A stretch of DNA of 64,000 bases from Calothrix membranacea FACHB-236 (GTDB taxonomy: Bacteria; Cyanobacteriota; Cyanobacteriia; Cyanobacteriales; Nostocaceae). The DNA lies in the NCBI RefSeq assembly GCF_014696315.1, contig NZ_JACJPX010000009.1, forward strand, positions 92,503 to 156,502, read 5' to 3'. The notes beneath the pieces were generated by a model. That model was not told the origin of the DNA and ran no database searches. It saw only the letters and a program-made list of their open reading frames with translations. Shown one piece after another: positions 2,448 through 15,893 of the stretch. Every line of letters begins with the position of its first letter. The first letter of the stretch is position 1. The position numbers were made by a program, and so were the translations under genes.

Positions 2448-5429
2448 CTACATTTCCTGTGCAAATAGCGTTAGCTGGGCTAAAGAATCAGCCAAGGCTA
2501 TGGCTTGCTCAGAAGTTTGATTGGCAATACTAGCTACTTCTAAAATAGATTGATTTACAGAGGTAGAAGTTTCAATTTGGACAGCAGCAGCTTGGGAAAT
2601 TTCTGCCACCAATGTTTGCATTTCGATACTCAGTGCGATCGCCTGCTGGAATTTCTGTTGAGTGTGCGCTACCAAGTCACTGCTACTTTTTGCTTGTTCT
2701 GCGCTGGATTGCATAGCCGCGATCGCTTGATCACTTTCTGCGTGAATGTCCGCAACCAATGGTTGAACTTCTGTAATCTCTAATTCTAACTGTTGTACTA
2801 GGGAAAGTGCTTTTTGGGCGATCGCGGCAAATTTTTGACCTGCTTCTCCACTCCGCGATGCTTCTAGTGCTGTATGCATAGCTTGCAGCTTAATCTGAGA
2901 GATAACATTGCTAATGAGATTTATTTTCTCAGACAGATGTTGTGAAGGTTCCTCAAGACGGTTAAGTCTTTGGGCCGCTTGGACAACGGTTTCTTGAATA
3001 GCATAGATGCTCTCTAAAATTTGGCTCATGGACTGATTTTCGTCCTGTACCGTCTGGCTGATCTGCTGTTCTTGAAATTCTAGCTGTTGGGCAGAATTGA
3101 CCATTCTCTGAGTCAAATCACCCAACAATTGAGTTTGATTGTAGATAAATTCAATAGATTGCAATTGCGTCAGTGCCACATTTGTAGACAAAGTTTGCAC
3201 AACTGCGTTCCCATTTCTCAGCAGTTCGGAAACCTGTAGCTTGAGTTCTTCTTGTTTTTGAGACTGCTCAACAGATATCACGGTGGCAGCTTGGTATGCT
3301 TGATCTACTTGATTCAAGAGTCTGGCGTGTTCGAGCGCAAATCCGACTTGCATGGCGACTTGAGCGAACAAATCAATTTCAGTTTGTTGCCAATCACGAG
3401 GGGCTGAGCATTCATGAGCAATTAATAAGCCAAATAACTGACCATCTTTGAGAATTGGTGCAACTAAATTGGCTTTGACGGCAAAAGGTTCGAGTTGGCT
3501 AAGGTGACACTCGGTTAAACTCGCTTCATAAACATTGCTGATAGCTTGAACTCGACCAGCTAGGTACTTTTCTATATAGCCTTCTGCAAAACACGGGTCT
3601 CTGATAATCGCCCACAAGGCTTTGGGAAAGCCGGGAAGTACTGATTCGGCAATCACAGTGCCATACCAATCGGGATCAAAACCATAAACTATGACTCTAT
3701 CGGCACTGATCGCTTTACGGACTTCTTCTACAGTAGTTTTGAGAACATCCTCTTCATTAAAGGATTCTTGAATGCGGCGAGTAATATCTACTAACAACTG
3801 AGTCCTAACAGCTTCAGCATCAATTCGCTGGAGTAGCCGCGCATGGTCAAGAGCAAATCCAACTTGCATGGCAATTTGAGTGAACAAATCAATCTCAAAT
3901 TTTCGCCAATCACGGGGAGCAGAACATTGATGGGCAATTAATAAGCCAAATAGCTGGTCATCTTTGAGAATCGGTGCAACTAAATTGGCTTTGACACCAA
4001 AGGGTTCAAGTTGGCCAATATGACATTCCCGCAAACCAGCTTCATAAATATTGCTGATAGCTTGGACTCGACCAGTTCGGTACTTTTCTATATAGCCTTC
4101 TGCAAAGCAAGGGTCTTTGATTTTGGCTCGCAAGGTTTTAGCAAAACCCGGAAGTACTGATTCTGCAATCACAGTGCCATACCACTCCGGATCAAAGCCA
4201 TAAACTATGACTCTATCAGCGCTCAGTGACTTGCGGACTTCTTCAACTGTGGTTTTGAGGACATCCTCTTCATTGAGGGATTCCCGAATGCGGCGGGTAA
4301 TATCTACAAATAGCTGAGTTTGATCGGCTTTCGTTTCTACCTGTTCCAGCAGGTGAGTGTAGTTGAGCACAAACCCTAATTGTGTAGCGATCTGAGCAAA
4401 CAAATCAATTTCCGACTGCTGCCAAAAGCGGGGTTTGGTACACTCATGGGCAATTAATAAGCCAAATAGCTGATTTTTCTGAAAAATTGGTGCTACCAAA
4501 TTGGCTTTGACTGCAAATCGCTCTAGGAAGCTAAGCTGAGAATCGCTGAGATCGACTTGATAGATGTCATCAATAGCAACGATATGACCATTTTGGTATT
4601 CTTCTATGTCCTCTCCCCCTACGGAGGGGACTGAGACTGTAGTCCGCAAAGTTTTCGGCAAACCGAATCCCACTGATTCGGCAACAAAGGTTCCTTCTCT
4701 ATGGGGATTGAAGCGAAAGATAGTGACGCGATCGCTGTTTAAGGCTGTGCGTACTTCCTCGACTGTGGTTTTGAGAACATCTTCTTCGTTGAGACATTCC
4801 TGAATGCGCCGGGTAATCTTCATTAAAACTTGGACGCGTTCAGTTTCTTGTTCTTGTTTCCATAGCAAATCTGGAAGCTGTTTTTTGATTAAGCTGATGT
4901 TTTTTTCTAAAACTACCAGTTCATCTTTGGAAGCGATCGCACCCCTAATTCCAGCTTGGTCTGGCAGTAGCCTCCGCACAATATTATTAGAGAGCGCGGC
5001 AGTATTGAGGAGTGGACGCAAGGCGCGATTAGTCAACAGGACTGAGATCGCACCCACCAACAAAGTTGTTACCCCTGTTCCCATTAACAATAGCGATAAC
5101 TGGTTTTGTAGCGCCAGCTTAGTTGCTGCTAACTGTTTAATCCCTAATGGTTTCGTATAAGAAATCTGCTCGGTAATTTGTTGGTTGCCAAGGTAATAGG
5201 TTGCAGACCCAACTGCTAGCACTGGAAGCATACTAATAGCACAAGACCAAACTGTTGCCTTGGCTTTCAAACTCCAATCTTTCTGTCCCAAACGCTGAGA
5301 ACTAGGAATTTGAATTATTGTTGGCCGCTTTGCACTATCTAAATTCGATTCCGCTACATTTTGTTGATTACCATCTAACTGATGATTTTTTTTATTACCT
5401 ACTTGTTTTTTTGGAGAGAAATTAGACAT
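2448..5429 (-). CDS. PixJ-like methyl-accepting phototaxis receptor with two DXCF cyanobacteriochrome GAF domains
   Basis: The protein has 993 residues: TM1 about 58-80, a short periplasmic loop, TM2 about 112-133, HAMP-like segment 134-188, GAF1 about 200-360, GAF2 about 372-532, GAF3 about 545-703, and a C-terminal chemoreceptor signalling domain with its tip near 846-866 (MHTALEASRSGEAGQKF). GAF2 and GAF3 both carry DPCF (C441, C613) and the bilin-binding Cys-His pair (ECHIGQL at 469-470; ECHLSQL at 641-642). These are the two cysteines of DXCF-class cyanobacteriochromes such as PixJ. GAF1 has neither cysteine and is likely structural. Family knowledge says such receptors sense blue/green light and steer type IV pili; the actual light response is inferred. 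The signalling tip departs from the usual chemoreceptor consensus. GAF2 and GAF3 are close duplicates. Confidence 0.88.
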   Translation of the reverse strand: MSNFSPKKQVGNKKNHQLDGNQQNVAESNLDSAKRPTIIQIPSSQRLGQKDWSLKAKATVWSCAISMLPVLAVGSATYYLGNQQITEQISYTKPLGIKQLAATKLALQNQLSLLLMGTGVTTLLVGAISVLLTNRALRPLLNTAALSNNIVRRLLPDQAGIRGAIASKDELVVLEKNISLIKKQLPDLLWKQEQETERVQVLMKITRRIQECLNEEDVLKTTVEEVRTALNSDRVTIFRFNPHREGTFVAESVGFGLPKTLRTTVSVPSVGGEDIEEYQNGHIVAIDDIYQVDLSDSQLSFLERFAVKANLVAPIFQKNQLFGLLIAHECTKPRFWQQSEIDLFAQIATQLGFVLNYTHLLEQVETKADQTQLFVDITRRIRESLNEEDVLKTTVEEVRKSLSADRVIVYGFDPEWYGTVIAESVLPGFAKTLRAKIKDPCFAEGYIEKYRTGRVQAISNIYEAGLRECHIGQLEPFGVKANLVAPILKDDQLFGLLIAHQCSAPRDWRKFEIDLFTQIAMQVGFALDHARLLQRIDAEAVRTQLLVDITRRIQESFNEEDVLKTTVEEVRKAISADRVIVYGFDPDWYGTVIAESVLPGFPKALWAIIRDPCFAEGYIEKYLAGRVQAISNVYEASLTECHLSQLEPFAVKANLVAPILKDGQLFGLLIAHECSAPRDWQQTEIDLFAQVAMQVGFALEHARLLNQVDQAYQAATVISVEQSQKQEELKLQVSELLRNGNAVVQTLSTNVALTQLQSIEFIYNQTQLLGDLTQRMVNSAQQLEFQEQQISQTVQDENQSMSQILESIYAIQETVVQAAQRLNRLEEPSQHLSEKINLISNVISQIKLQAMHTALEASRSGEAGQKFAAIAQKALSLVQQLELEITEVQPLVADIHAESDQAIAAMQSSAEQAKSSSDLVAHTQQKFQQAIALSIEMQTLVAEISQAAAVQIETSTSVNQSILEVASIANQTSEQAIALADSLAQLTLFAQEM

Positions 5430-12308: not shown

Positions 12309-13550
12309 TCAAGTAGTGTATTCGGCGTTGATTTTCACATAGTCGTAACTCAAGTCACAACCCCAAGCTTTACCAGTACCATGACCATTACCAACACTCA
12401 CAGAGATTAATACTGTATCTTCTTTGAGATAAGCACCTGCTGCTGCTTGTTTCAAATAAGCACTCGCTGCTGCACGATCAAATGATAGCGGTTGACCATT
12501 TTCTAAGAGTAAGAAATCCCCTAGCTTGATTTGCAAGTTTTCTTGCTCAAAGGGTACACCAGCACGTCCAGCAGCGGCGGCGATACGTCCCCAGTTGGGA
12601 TCGCGGCCAAAAATTGCAGATTTCACTAAGGATGAACCTGCGATAGTTTTAGCTATTTGACGCGCTGAAGTTTCATCATGGGCCCCAGTAACTTGCACTT
12701 CCATGAGACAAGTTGCACCTTCTCCATCACGGGCGATCGCTTTTGCTAAATGCTGGCATACTGCTGTTAACATTGCTTCTAGTTTTTCCGCTTCTGGCCC
12801 CATTTCGATAATGGCTGGGGTGCGGGATTGTCCATTAGCTAAGGCGATTAAGCTGTCATTGGTGCTGGTATCACCATCAACGGTAATGGAATTAAAGCTT
12901 CTGTCGGCGGCGCGACTTAACATTTGTTGCCAAAGCGCTGGCGATACAACCGCATCACAGGTGACAAATGCCAGCATAGTTGCCATGTTGGGGTGAATCA
13001 TCCCCGAACCTTTGGCAATTCCACCAATTCGCACCGGGCGATCGCCTATAGTTGTCTCTAAGGCAATGGATTTAGGCACCAAATCTGTAGTGATAATTGC
13101 TCCAGCTGCCGCATCTGAGCCTGTTTCTGAAAGTGCAGCTACTAGTTGCGGAATCCCTGCTTTAAGTTTATCCATCTTGATGCGCTGTCCAATCACCCCA
13201 GTGGAGGCCAATAATACAGATTCGCTAGGGATATTCAAAACTTGGGCTACTGTCATCGCTGATTCTAAAGCATCAAACCAGCCCTGAGTACCTGTAGCTG
13301 CGTTTGCTTGTCCAGCATTACAGAGAATTGCCCGTGCATTCTGCTTGGCTTGTAAGCGTTGGCGACAATAATCTACACAGGCGGCTCTAACTTGACTGGT
13401 GGTAAACACACCTGCTGCGATCGCTTCTACATCTGACAATATCAAAGCTAAATCAGGTAATCCCGAAGGCTTTAAACCTGCGGTAATTCCTGCTGCTCGA
13501 TATCCCCTTGGTGCTGTGATACCACCTGTAATCTCCTGCCAGTCTGCCAT
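12309..13550 (-). CDS. argJ: Bifunctional ornithine acetyltransferase / N-acetylglutamate synthase ArgJ
   Basis: The protein has 413 residues, the family's normal length. ArgJ recycles the acetyl group from N-acetylornithine to glutamate and can also acetylate glutamate with acetyl-CoA in arginine synthesis. It is self-cleaved before a threonine nucleophile, here T191 in the conserved GSGMIHPNMATML. Other family signatures are the N-terminal GGITAPRGYRAAGI and the C-terminal DPNWGRIAAAAGRAG. The ATG at 13550 has GGGAGA about 6 nt upstream. The gene stands alone, as cyanobacterial arg genes usually do. Confidence 0.97.
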   Translation of the reverse strand: MADWQEITGGITAPRGYRAAGITAGLKPSGLPDLALILSDVEAIAAGVFTTSQVRAACVDYCRQRLQAKQNARAILCNAGQANAATGTQGWFDALESAMTVAQVLNIPSESVLLASTGVIGQRIKMDKLKAGIPQLVAALSETGSDAAAGAIITTDLVPKSIALETTIGDRPVRIGGIAKGSGMIHPNMATMLAFVTCDAVVSPALWQQMLSRAADRSFNSITVDGDTSTNDSLIALANGQSRTPAIIEMGPEAEKLEAMLTAVCQHLAKAIARDGEGATCLMEVQVTGAHDETSARQIAKTIAGSSLVKSAIFGRDPNWGRIAAAAGRAGVPFEQENLQIKLGDFLLLENGQPLSFDRAAASAYLKQAAAGAYLKEDTVLISVSVGNGHGTGKAWGCDLSYDYVKINAEYTT

Positions 13551-13649
13551 GATTATTCTCCCACAACTATCTAGTGGCTCGACTGGCGATTATACCAAGT
13601 CTTATGTAATTCCAAATTCAAACTTTAAAATTCCATAGGATTGAGGGTT

Positions 13650-13707
13650 GGGGACTGGGGACTGGGGATTAGGGATTAGGGATTAGGGATTAGGGACTGG
13701 GGACTGA
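13650..13707. repeat. STRR1 array (GGGGACT / AGGGATT heptamers)
   Basis: At least seven consecutive heptamers alternate between GGGGACT and AGGGATT, the complement of the CCCCRRT class known as STRR1 in heterocystous cyanobacteria. Confidence 0.85.
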
Positions 13708-13790
13708 GAGATGAGGAAGATGAAGGAAAACACCAATTACCAATTACCAATTACCAAATGACCCTTGACTCTTAACAACATCAAAAATTG

Positions 13791-13841
13791 AAAAAGGAGA
13801 GCCACTTGGGCAGCTCTCCAGATCATCAGGGTGCATCTATA
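13791..13841 (-). ncRNA. Putative small RNA, array copy A
   Basis: On the minus strand a conserved core (ATGCACCCTGATGA, then CTGGAGAGCTGCCCAAGTGG) ends in a hairpin with 7-bp arms (GGAGAGC 13796-13802 and GCTCTCC 13813-13819) followed by five T. Upstream are a TATGAT -10 box and a TTGCCC -35 box spaced 16 bp apart. A transcript of about 50 nt is predicted. Expression is inferred. Confidence 0.65.
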
Positions 13842-13847
13842 TACCAC

Positions 13848-13875
13848 ATCATAACATATTTTCGCTGAGGGGCAA
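13848..13875 (-). promoter_or_regulatory. Promoter of sRNA copy A (TTGCCC-16-TATGAT)
   Basis: On the minus strand the -35 TTGCCC is 13870-13875 and the -10 TATGAT is 13848-13853, with a 16-bp spacer. The -35 sits in a GGGGTATTGCCCC-like dyad that is also seen at copies C and D. Confidence 0.6.
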
Positions 13876-13932
13876 TACCCCTTAATCAGGTTTTTATGAA
13901 AATATGGTGAAGTTGGCTTTCAGGTTAACACA

Positions 13933-13987
13933 AAAAATAAAAAAGGCAACTACTTGGGCAAATTTTCAAATTATCAGCGTGCATTTA
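13933..13987 (-). ncRNA. Putative small RNA, array copy B (degenerate)
   Basis: Shares the core (ATGCACGCTGATAA, then TTGCCCAAGTAG) and a trailing T-run with the other copies. The 5' arm of the hairpin has decayed and no -35 box is visible, so this copy may be silent. Confidence 0.4.
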
Positions 13988-14096
13988 CTTAGCAGATAAG
14001 TAGATTTTCAACATGAGTGATACTACTTGTTATTTAATGCTTTGATCCAAAATTCTGATGAAGACTCTTCATCATCAGATACAGCCCAGTCAGTAC

Positions 14097-14116
14097 AGAC
14101 GCGATCAATCGCGTCT
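14097..14116. repeat. Dispersed palindrome AGACGCGAT-CA-ATCGCGTCT
   Basis: A 9-bp perfect inverted repeat. Sister copies occur at 40216-40235 and 45346-45367. Confidence 0.7.
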
Positions 14117-14297
14117 ACTGTTTTGCCTAGCAGAAATTCTCAAAGATAATTCTTGAGTGGTTTCTACTTTCTTGGGAGCTAAAAGACTACTAATTAAGCT
14201 CATCTCACCCCTCAAAGATTCACGGCATAAAGAAAGCTATTAATGCCCAATGCCCGATGCCCCAAGTAAGCTTTCCCGCCTACTTTTTGTAATTCAC

Positions 14298-14351
14298 AAA
14301 AAAAAGAGAGCTACTTGGGCAGCTCTCCAGGTCATCAGGGTGCATCTATAT
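14298..14351 (-). ncRNA. Putative small RNA, array copy C (best preserved)
   Basis: On the minus strand a perfect TATAAT -10 box precedes the core ATGCACCCTGATGACC and a hairpin (AGAGCT-containing 7-bp arms, 14306-14312 and 14321-14327; loop GCCCAAGT) followed by eight T. This is a textbook intrinsic terminator. The predicted transcript is about 54 nt. The core is nearly identical to copy A about 500 bp away, while the surrounding spacer is not conserved. Confidence 0.7.
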
Positions 14352-14357
14352 AACATG

Positions 14358-14385
14358 ATTATAGCATCTTTGTGGTGATGGGCAA
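14358..14385 (-). promoter_or_regulatory. Promoter of sRNA copy C (TTGCCC-16-TATAAT)
   Basis: The -35 TTGCCC is 14380-14385 and the -10 TATAAT is 14358-14363, with a 16-bp spacer exactly as in copy A. The surrounding GGGTCTTGCCC resembles the dyad upstream of copy A. Confidence 0.65.
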
Positions 14386-14450
14386 GACCCCCCAATGAAA
14401 GTTTTTTGTATAAATTTTTGGCAAATTTTTTGAGGCTGGGTTTGCTCAAT

Positions 14451-14499
14451 CACAAGCAGCGCTACTTAGATAGCTTTTGAGAGCATCAGCGTATATTGT
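14451..14499 (-). ncRNA. Putative small RNA, array copy D (diverged)
   Basis: The core aligns with the other copies (TACGCTGATGCTCTC, then AAGTAG) with a TATACT -10 box at 14506-14511. The -35 region reads ATACCC at the expected spacing. The terminator arms are weaker and no long T-run follows. Confidence 0.4.
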
Positions 14500-14703
14500 T
14501 AACAGAGTATAACATTTTGGGAGTGAGGGGTATAACCCATCTTCATAATTTCTTGTTATCACATTTTGTAAAGCAACTACCGAACACTGGCGATATCAGA
14601 GCGTACAAGCAGCATTTGGCAATAATTCGTACAAGCGTGTAGTGCGATCGCCTTAACTCTTCAATGATAATTGACAGCTGACCTAGGTTAAATTTCCCAT
14701 AAA

Positions 14704-14759: not shown

Positions 14760-15893
14760 CTATGCAGGGTTAAATTGAGATCTGCGTTGCAATAGTTGGA
14801 TAATCGCAGCTTTCTCTAAAATTCCCACTAGTACGCCATTTTCACGAATTACTGGAAGTGCAGAGATTTGTTGTTGTTCGAGTAGCTGAACTACTTCTAC
14901 TAATGGCTTGTCTGATTGGACTGTGGTAGATTCTGCAATGGGTCGCATGACTTGTTTAACTTGAGTTTCTGACCACTCAGTTGTAGGAATGGTTCGCAAA
15001 TCATGAGCTGCGATCGCACCTACTAATTGTCCTTCATCGTCAGTTACTAAGAAGCGATGCCATTGTTCTCCACTTAAGATGCGTTCATCAGCGAATTCTC
15101 TGAGAGTTAGGTTAGCAGAAACAATCGGGCTATTAGGGGTGACAACATCTGCAGCAGTTAAGCCTGTCAGTTTTTCTTGGACTCTGGCAAATTGCGCGGC
15201 GTTACCTGCATTTTGTAGCAAGAAGAAACCAATTAACAAGTTCCAGATGTTCGCAAAGCTACCGAAGAATAGTATGGGAAGTAAACCAGAAGCGATCGCT
15301 ACCCAACCAAATATCTGTCCAACTCGACTGGCAAAGGTTACGCCTTTATAAGGATTGCCTGTAATCTTCCAAACTAAGGCTTTCAGTATATTACCCCCAT
15401 CTAAGGGTAAGCCAGGAATGAGGTTAAATAGCGCTAATGCGAGGTTAACAGTAGCTAAAACGCCTAGTATTGCGGCGAGTGGCCCAGTGGCGGCTGTAGC
15501 GTAACCAATACCTGTAGTTAACCCGCAGATTAATAGACTAACTAACGGCCCTGCGATCGCTACCCAAAAAGCTTCGCCTGGGGTTTTCGATTCTTTCTCT
15601 AAGCTGGCTAAACCACCAAATATAAATAATGTGATTGATTTAACATCAATTCCTTGGCGAATAGCTACAAAGCTATGTCCTAATTCATGGGCGACGACAG
15701 AGGCAAATAACAACAGCGCTGTCATCAATCCTAGTACTAAAGCTAGTCCTCCAGATAATTGCGGGAATTGCCCCATCAGTCCGCTGCTATAAGTCCAAGT
15801 TACTAAACCCAGAACTAAAAACCACGACGGATGGATATAGAAGGGAATCCCGAAGAGATTACCAACGCGTATTGTGCCATTCATGTCGTTCAC
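14760..15893 (-). CDS. Site-2 protease family zinc metalloprotease with CBS domains (M50)
   Basis: The protein has 377 residues. About six hydrophobic segments span residues 15-235. The zinc site is HELGH (69-73) in the second membrane region, with the third ligand in LPLDGGN (near 162-168). Two CBS domains follow (about 245-375). This is the archaeal/cyanobacterial SpoIVFB-like group 3 layout, expected to cut membrane-bound proteins inside the bilayer, with CBS domains sensing adenine nucleotides or energy state. The natural substrate is unknown. The ATG at 15893 follows a weak ribosome site (AAAGGTG). A terminator follows the gene. Confidence 0.93.
   Translation of the reverse strand: MNDMNGTIRVGNLFGIPFYIHPSWFLVLGLVTWTYSSGLMGQFPQLSGGLALVLGLMTALLLFASVVAHELGHSFVAIRQGIDVKSITLFIFGGLASLEKESKTPGEAFWVAIAGPLVSLLICGLTTGIGYATAATGPLAAILGVLATVNLALALFNLIPGLPLDGGNILKALVWKITGNPYKGVTFASRVGQIFGWVAIASGLLPILFFGSFANIWNLLIGFFLLQNAGNAAQFARVQEKLTGLTAADVVTPNSPIVSANLTLREFADERILSGEQWHRFLVTDDEGQLVGAIAAHDLRTIPTTEWSETQVKQVMRPIAESTTVQSDKPLVEVVQLLEQQQISALPVIRENGVLVGILEKAAIIQLLQRRSQFNPA

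Follow-up and report, generated by a model that had tools for sequence, protein, structure and literature searches.

Among the small RNAs described in cyanobacteria, the closest to the one considered here is NsiR1, a heterocyst sRNA of Nostoc 7120, which in the available text of PMC9045159 is about 60 nt long, is present in 12 tandem copies with DIF1 promoters, depends on HetR and acts on hetF and alr3234. According to the accessible sections of PMC7377430, DIF1 promoters rely more directly on HetZ, which in turn is governed from a HetR site, and therefore promoters carrying a HetR-type dyad and DIF1 promoters would both be expected to answer to HetR, either directly or via HetZ. The HetR site is given as the 17-bp sequence GAGGGGTCTAACCCCTC, with GGGnnnnnCCC as requirement, in a paper whose available portion also reports binding of HetR to promoters devoid of this repeat (PMC4192349). 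DNA of the same site is present in a HetR crystal (PMC4649674) and has been named high-affinity (PMC7476756), according to the accessible parts of both papers. Outside Nostocales, deletions of hetR and of patX have been published for the HetR-bearing Leptolyngbya BL0902 (PMC11298460). A further short RNA of Nostoc 7120, 4547237r, has homologs in 12 of 27 heterocystous genomes, as stated in the available part of PMC4734099.

The window analyzed here, a stretch of 64,000 nucleotides of Calothrix membranacea FACHB-236, probably contains two intact (A and C) and two decayed (B and D) copies of a gene for a predicted sRNA of about 50 nt, which has 15 nt near its 5' end in common with NsiR1, and the intact copies are likely to be under the control of HetR through a HetR-type sequence at -35. 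This reading is based on a conserved 5' stretch, a covarying hairpin, a fixed spacing between dyad, -10 box and core, the gatB/argJ locus and the co-occurrence with HetR.

Organization of the array

A preliminary description of this DNA proposed a tandem array of four promoter-core-terminator copies, and four related units are in fact present (Table 1), of which A and C are complete, with the core GATGCACCCTGATGA, while B and D are decayed, so that the array cannot be regarded as four functional copies. Likewise, the core thought to be common to all four is found in its exact form in A and C only. The -10 box ahead of each of these two copies and the GC-rich hairpin with T-run behind were confirmed, and GCCCAAGT, which had been placed in a hairpin loop, does lie at a hairpin but is not all loop, given a 10-bp stem and the loop CCAA. 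The core G is at 14346 in copy A and at 13837 in copy C (minus strand), and the predicted folds reach -18.0 and -17.9 kcal/mol, respectively. The statement that the spacers are unrelated and the cores kept also held, with A and C identical at 42 of 45 positions in the core and at 27/100 and 18/100 in the outer flanks (ungapped); from promoter to terminator their identity is 85% when gaps are allowed. In the whole 8.8-Mb genome the 14-mer core has two exact occurrences, and both lie in this array. In copy B the core at 13985 reads ATGCACGCTGATAA and the predicted fold amounts to -3.1 kcal/mol, and in copy D, with its core at about 14495, some core letters and the terminator are gone and the predicted fold is -8.3 kcal/mol. 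As initially noted, no hetF is adjacent, the neighbors being argJ and an M50 protease gene. Heptamer tandem repeats, TGGGGAC and ACCAATT, are located at window positions 13649-13757, between copy C and argJ.

Table 1. Features of the array and of its flanking genes, with window positions, in the direction of the minus strand.
Feature	Position	Strand	Remarks
M50 protease with CBS domains, upstream neighbor in place of the usual gatB	14760..15893	-	
Copy D, decayed remnant	14448..14538	-	dyad 14538-14528 and -10 14511-14506 kept
Copy A, HetR-type site GGGTCTTGCCC in -35 region	14380..14390	-	matches published GGGnnnnnCCC requirement (PMC4192349, available text)
Copy A, -10 box TATAAT, TGC ahead (extended -10)	14358..14363	-	
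Copy A, predicted RNA of ~50 nt (GAUGCACCCUGAUGA in 5' part, then terminator hairpin)	14298..14350	-	start estimated from -10 box
Copy A, terminator hairpin, 10 bp, loop CCAA, T-run	14305..14328	-	
Copy B, decayed remnant	13937..13990	-	NsiR1-model match 19.5 bits; no dyad, -10 match or stable hairpin
Copy C, HetR-type site GGGTATTGCCC within AGGGGTATTGCCCCTCA	13870..13880	-	
Copy C, -10 box TATGAT	13848..13853	-	
Copy C, predicted RNA of ~50 nt	13791..13841	-	start estimated from -10 box
Copy C, terminator hairpin, 10-bp GC-rich, T-run	13796..13819	-	
argJ, frequent downstream neighbor of the array	12309..13550	-	PF01960 E 2.5e-150; synteny

Conservation of the unit and of its locus

Conservation of the core in related genomes, on which the preliminary description had made its proposal depend, was observed in the genus and in the family. 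With copy A as BLAST query the unit was found in all eight genomes of the genus, at 98-100% identity over 95-96 nt in five of them (own genome included) and at 88-89% in the other three, and 206 of 217 family genomes were matched at E up to 0.01. A covariance model built from 68 copies (alignment A1) detected the unit in 212 of the 217, and in 204 of the 206 with a completeness of 90% or more and no more than 5% contamination. A regular expression had removed 15 rows from A1 (degenerate copies, repeats among them), and rows below 55 bits or duplicated were left out, and consequently A1 overstates the conservation of the first letters. Positive family genomes have 1-9 model matches each, except for two, G093 and G094, with the unusually high numbers of 11 and 21, the latter genome being marked as 38% contaminated.

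A scan of named genomes returned at least 80 loci, nearly all in genera which, from the titles of the loci listed, we take to be Nostocales, plus Coleofasciculus sp. LEGE 07092 (Coleofasciculales per NCBI), in which the unit carries AGGGGGTGACACCCCTCA and which is not known to form heterocysts. A restriction to Nostocales was not supported: relatives of the putative sRNA were detected in further families and orders of cyanobacteria, in most cases in genomes that also have HetR. Across the phylum, 98 of 386 genomes were matched by the covariance model at E up to 0.01, the weakest of these matches probably being due to chance; those at E 0.0008-0.009 outside the class were taken as such, and none of the genomes concerned has the 16-mer TAGATGCACCCTGATG. 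This 16-mer was found exactly in 81 of the 386 genomes, none of them outside the class or in family f25, and its reversed control in 0/386.

Among the 80 named loci listed, argJ or gatB is present in 72, argJ in 57 and both in 38, and where both genes were read the order is in most cases gatB, array, argJ on one strand. Of 35 outgroup loci, 22 have gatB (20) and/or argJ (7) beside the unit, with both in five. The neighborhood is thus also found outside the family, which argues that the putative sRNA occupies an old locus.

The outgroup sample comprised 40 stretches, mostly best model matches (a choice that favors hairpins, not dyads), 20 further stretches chosen by the 16-mer alone, and some others. 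In the 42 outgroup matches reaching the 5' end, which come from loci chosen mostly by the covariance model, AGATGCACCCTGATG is exact in 38 and the 12-mer ATGCACCCTGAT is present in 41; in alignment A2 the letters of this 12-mer are constant by choice, because the outgroup rows were picked by their exact ATGCACCCTGAT. In this alignment, with 26 rows from several families, both positions are altered in 7 of 11 stem pairs, and the 27 cells obtained, compared with a shuffled mean of 7.6, were reached in 0/500 shuffles; sliding the partner by 1-3 columns left 3-9 cells, and one of five covariation measures (further pair types) was not above shuffles (158/500). The letters of the 5' part and the shape of the 3' hairpin are hence both kept, as expected of an RNA. 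A terminator follows 98/98 outgroup units, compared with 69/2000 random positions, and of 426 distinct sites of a 13-mer across the sampled loci, 414 have a terminator-like hairpin behind; the remaining 12 are unsorted, and antisense HU sites are among such places. The earlier proposal of separate small RNAs is in accordance with this conservation, with the covarying hairpins and terminators and with the 5' sequence common to NsiR1, and each intact copy would give rise to its own transcript.

Promoters and the link to HetR

The dyad described as recurring at the -35 position was found at copies A, C and D in the form GGGnnnnnCCC and is absent at B, and for the common regulator then postulated HetR is now the candidate. 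The spacing of the promoter elements is fixed: 119 of 151 dyad-type units have TATAnT at -16 from the core G and 125 have the dyad at -44 or -45, 83 of 89 DIF units have TCCGGA at -39 or -40, and a further 173 units fall under 'other' by the strict promoter test, many of them with near-dyads. In the outgroup, GGGn5CCC stands at -37 to -48 in 52/98 units (random positions, 122/20000) and strict TCCGGA in 16/98 (random, 49/20000), with only 68/98 having either a strict dyad or a strict DIF1. The dyad is perfect in 122 of 231 argJ-type units of Nostocaceae, has one mismatch in 103 and two in 6, and random matches amount to 97/20000 without mismatch and 600/20000 with one; some of these loci came from BLAST with a dyad-containing query and others from the RNA part alone. 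An extended -10 is present in 207 of the 231, and the Anabaena/Trichormus-like loci inspected have a dyad with one mismatch, the right half being CTCC. With a looser dyad pattern G299 and G440 were flagged as well, at a different position, which is not the case with the positioned test.

HetR is encoded in the host genome, G000 (PF03574, E 2.7e-78). The motif-positive set of 36 consisted of the own genome, 34 of the 44 extra-family genomes with the 16-mer, and G366 (by the model only), and the Pfam domain of HetR was detected in 32 of them. In the motif-negative set of 50 genomes of the class, made up of the 28 remaining members of the order, all 13 from outside both the order and f25, and 9 from f25, it was detected in 1. 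The Fisher value of 4.5e-18 is uncorrected for kinship, and the effective sample is small because the co-occurrence follows lineages. Each of the 31 HetR-positive extra-family genomes contains one or more units bearing a dyad or DIF1, and in 29 of them a dyad is present.

The link between the putative sRNA and HetR appears strong by sequence and co-occurrence. We hypothesize that HetR dimers bind to the dyad, and we lean slightly towards repression rather than activation, given that the site coincides in part with the -35 box of a promoter of the extended -10 type. It seems unlikely that, the sRNA being real, its dyad serves a different regulator or is a mere promoter element, with HetR co-occurring by lineage only. 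The dyad has the same half-site letters and the same spacing as the HetR site in the crystal, and it recurs ahead of hetP, about 1 kb upstream of a hetP-family match in 7/8 genus genomes (not in G001). Moreover, the HetR-less G221, G297 and G494 keep the RNA, as one unit each, without dyad or DIF1; in G221 gatB, the RNA and argJ are still in place and the dyad is missing, and of five further congeners of G297 and G494, outside the HetR count, the three that were read are also without it. Nevertheless, HetR and the motif both follow lineage, and five of the seven units of G420, in which no HetR match was found, still have the dyad, which counts against control by HetR. In the same direction, no argJ peak is named in the HetR ChIP-seq table of Nostoc 7120 at 6 h, where the ortholog of the unit is unplaced (PMC4192349).

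That the units are cis elements of argJ, such as a leader, an attenuator or insulating terminators, and not free RNAs, is very improbable. Where the order was read, argJ lies downstream on the same strand, and it is found in 57 of the 80 named loci listed, but every intact unit is closed by a terminator of its own, 8 of these 80 loci (some cut by contig ends) have neither argJ nor gatB, 15 of the 22 syntenic outgroup loci have gatB but no argJ in the 2 kb of flank examined, and DIF-type units lie elsewhere. The syntenic locus outside the family (22/35 loci), the near-constant 5' stretch and the fixed promoter spacing likewise make it hard to believe in a mobile or REP-type repeat multiplying without function, for which the 1-9 matches per positive family genome, and the 11 and 21 in two, might otherwise speak. 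The chance that the unit is a leaderless micro-peptide gene starting MHPDD is close to negligible: ATG CAC CCT GAT is kept in 41/42 outgroup matches, whereas the frames of A and C, inspected by eye, have no stop codon ahead of the terminator, one copy (L053) carries a 1-nt insertion after GATG, and the hairpin varies in length by single nucleotides among copies and covaries as RNA.

Relation to NsiR1 and other described systems

The likeness to NsiR1 which had been suggested holds for the 15-nt sequence TAGATGCACCCTGAT near the 5' end, common to copies A and C and NsiR1, and the NsiR1 5' sequence UAGAUGCACCCUGAU is found in both copies, but the array itself is not NsiR1. With the Rfam NsiR1 model (RF02399; cut-off 39 bits) copies A, B and C score 21.2, 19.5 and 19.4 bits and no match is listed for copy D; these scores below the cut-off are explained by the common 5' stretch (TAGATGCACCCTGAT in A and C), the hairpin that follows being different. 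In this genome the true NsiR1 array resides on a different contig (G000:C68), where 12 units are spaced at 117-244 bp, score up to 77 bits and have TCCGGA ahead of each, next to an 830-aa ORF that is presumably hetF. At -35, TCCGGA was found ahead of none of the window copies and of 0/231 argJ-type units in the Nostocaceae loci. Elsewhere in the window, TCCGGA hexamers are present at 4186, 20332, 28735 and 39906. A lone NsiR1-like unit with TCCGGA upstream (51.9 bits) was also noticed away from the hetF array, at G000:C1:213824-213875 (L347), and single matches of similar score recur in other genomes of the genus.

In all of 18 outgroup loci bearing DIF1 or DIF1-like units, one or more units exceed the NsiR1 cut-off, a few single units remaining below it at 34.9-38.1 bits, and therefore RNAs of the NsiR1 type are not confined to Nostocaceae; in two outgroup dyad-type loci scored alongside, no unit exceeded the cut-off. 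In G251, from outside the family, nine NsiR1-type units lie in tandem, 129-220 bp apart, on the minus strand of L335 at about 1460-2700. By these comparisons the RNA of the window is to be seen as a putative sibling, and not a member, of NsiR1, and the reading that fits best is an old family of HetR-linked sRNAs whose heterocyst branch is NsiR1. NsiR1 would have taken a DIF1 promoter and a different hairpin, and hence the same 5' sequence would be delivered under two HetR-linked promoter types. On balance, we slightly favor an RNA output of HetR that predates heterocysts, namely, in cyanobacteria that have HetR, a family of sRNAs with a fixed 5' seed which is kept beside gatB/argJ under a HetR site and was subsequently duplicated under DIF1 promoters, NsiR1 being the branch recruited to heterocyst commitment. 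If true, this would explain the origin of NsiR1 and predict common targets for two differently controlled RNAs, and a conserved RNA which travels with HetR and bears a HetR-type site offers a concrete, measurable HetR output to test.

With its 5' stretch the RNA may base-pair to mRNAs close to the start site, in the manner reported for NsiR1 and alr3234 in Nostoc 7120. The 5'UTR of the HU gene (hup) is perfectly complementary to the 5' end of the sRNA over 15 nt in 7/8 genus genomes (a weaker site in G001), the complement being formed by the loop and 3' arm of a hairpin, AGATGC...GCATCT, at L346:1279-1340 (G000:C110, minus strand). Of 70 family HU upstream regions, drawn from 205 family genomes with an HU match, 37 had z < -2 (mononucleotide shuffles, with the family-consensus 5' end as query). 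HU was nevertheless rejected as a target and is only a weak lead, because the hairpin arms change together, breaking the pairing with the sRNA (e.g., in G010, G089 and G091). For hetP-like genes, inspection of the HetP start regions by eye, without shuffled control, gave no convincing pairing with the argJ-type RNA.

Searches by title or abstract, in which subscription journals are thinly covered, returned no paper on this sRNA locus, and a literature mention of 4547237r and 2462444f was found in PMC4734099 only. According to the accessible part of that paper, 4547237r resembles the RNA of the window in its length of about 50 nt and its occurrence in heterocystous genomes, and is verified by northern blot in Nostoc 7120; compared by description, its homologs number 12/27 by the criteria of that paper and those of the present unit 212/217, and identity of the two RNAs is rather unlikely. 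Yfr1, Yfr2 and other cyanobacterial sRNAs of Rfam are also short and widely kept, with a constant unpaired stretch in Yfr1 (PMC4734099, available part), whereas in the window no Rfam family reached its cut-off in a covariance scan. The dyad AGGGGTNNNNRCCCCT is shared with promoters carrying a HetR recognition site, such as that of hetP, with the difference that here it occupies the -35 position of a predicted sRNA promoter. The resemblance to NsiR1 of Nostoc 7120 extends to a 5' stretch followed by a terminator, a length of about 50-60 nt and tandem copies with their own promoters; in contrast, the array described here has a different terminator hairpin, an Rfam score below the cut-off, a HetR-type dyad at -35 and argJ/gatB beside it, where NsiR1 has the DIF1 motif TCCGGA and hetF.
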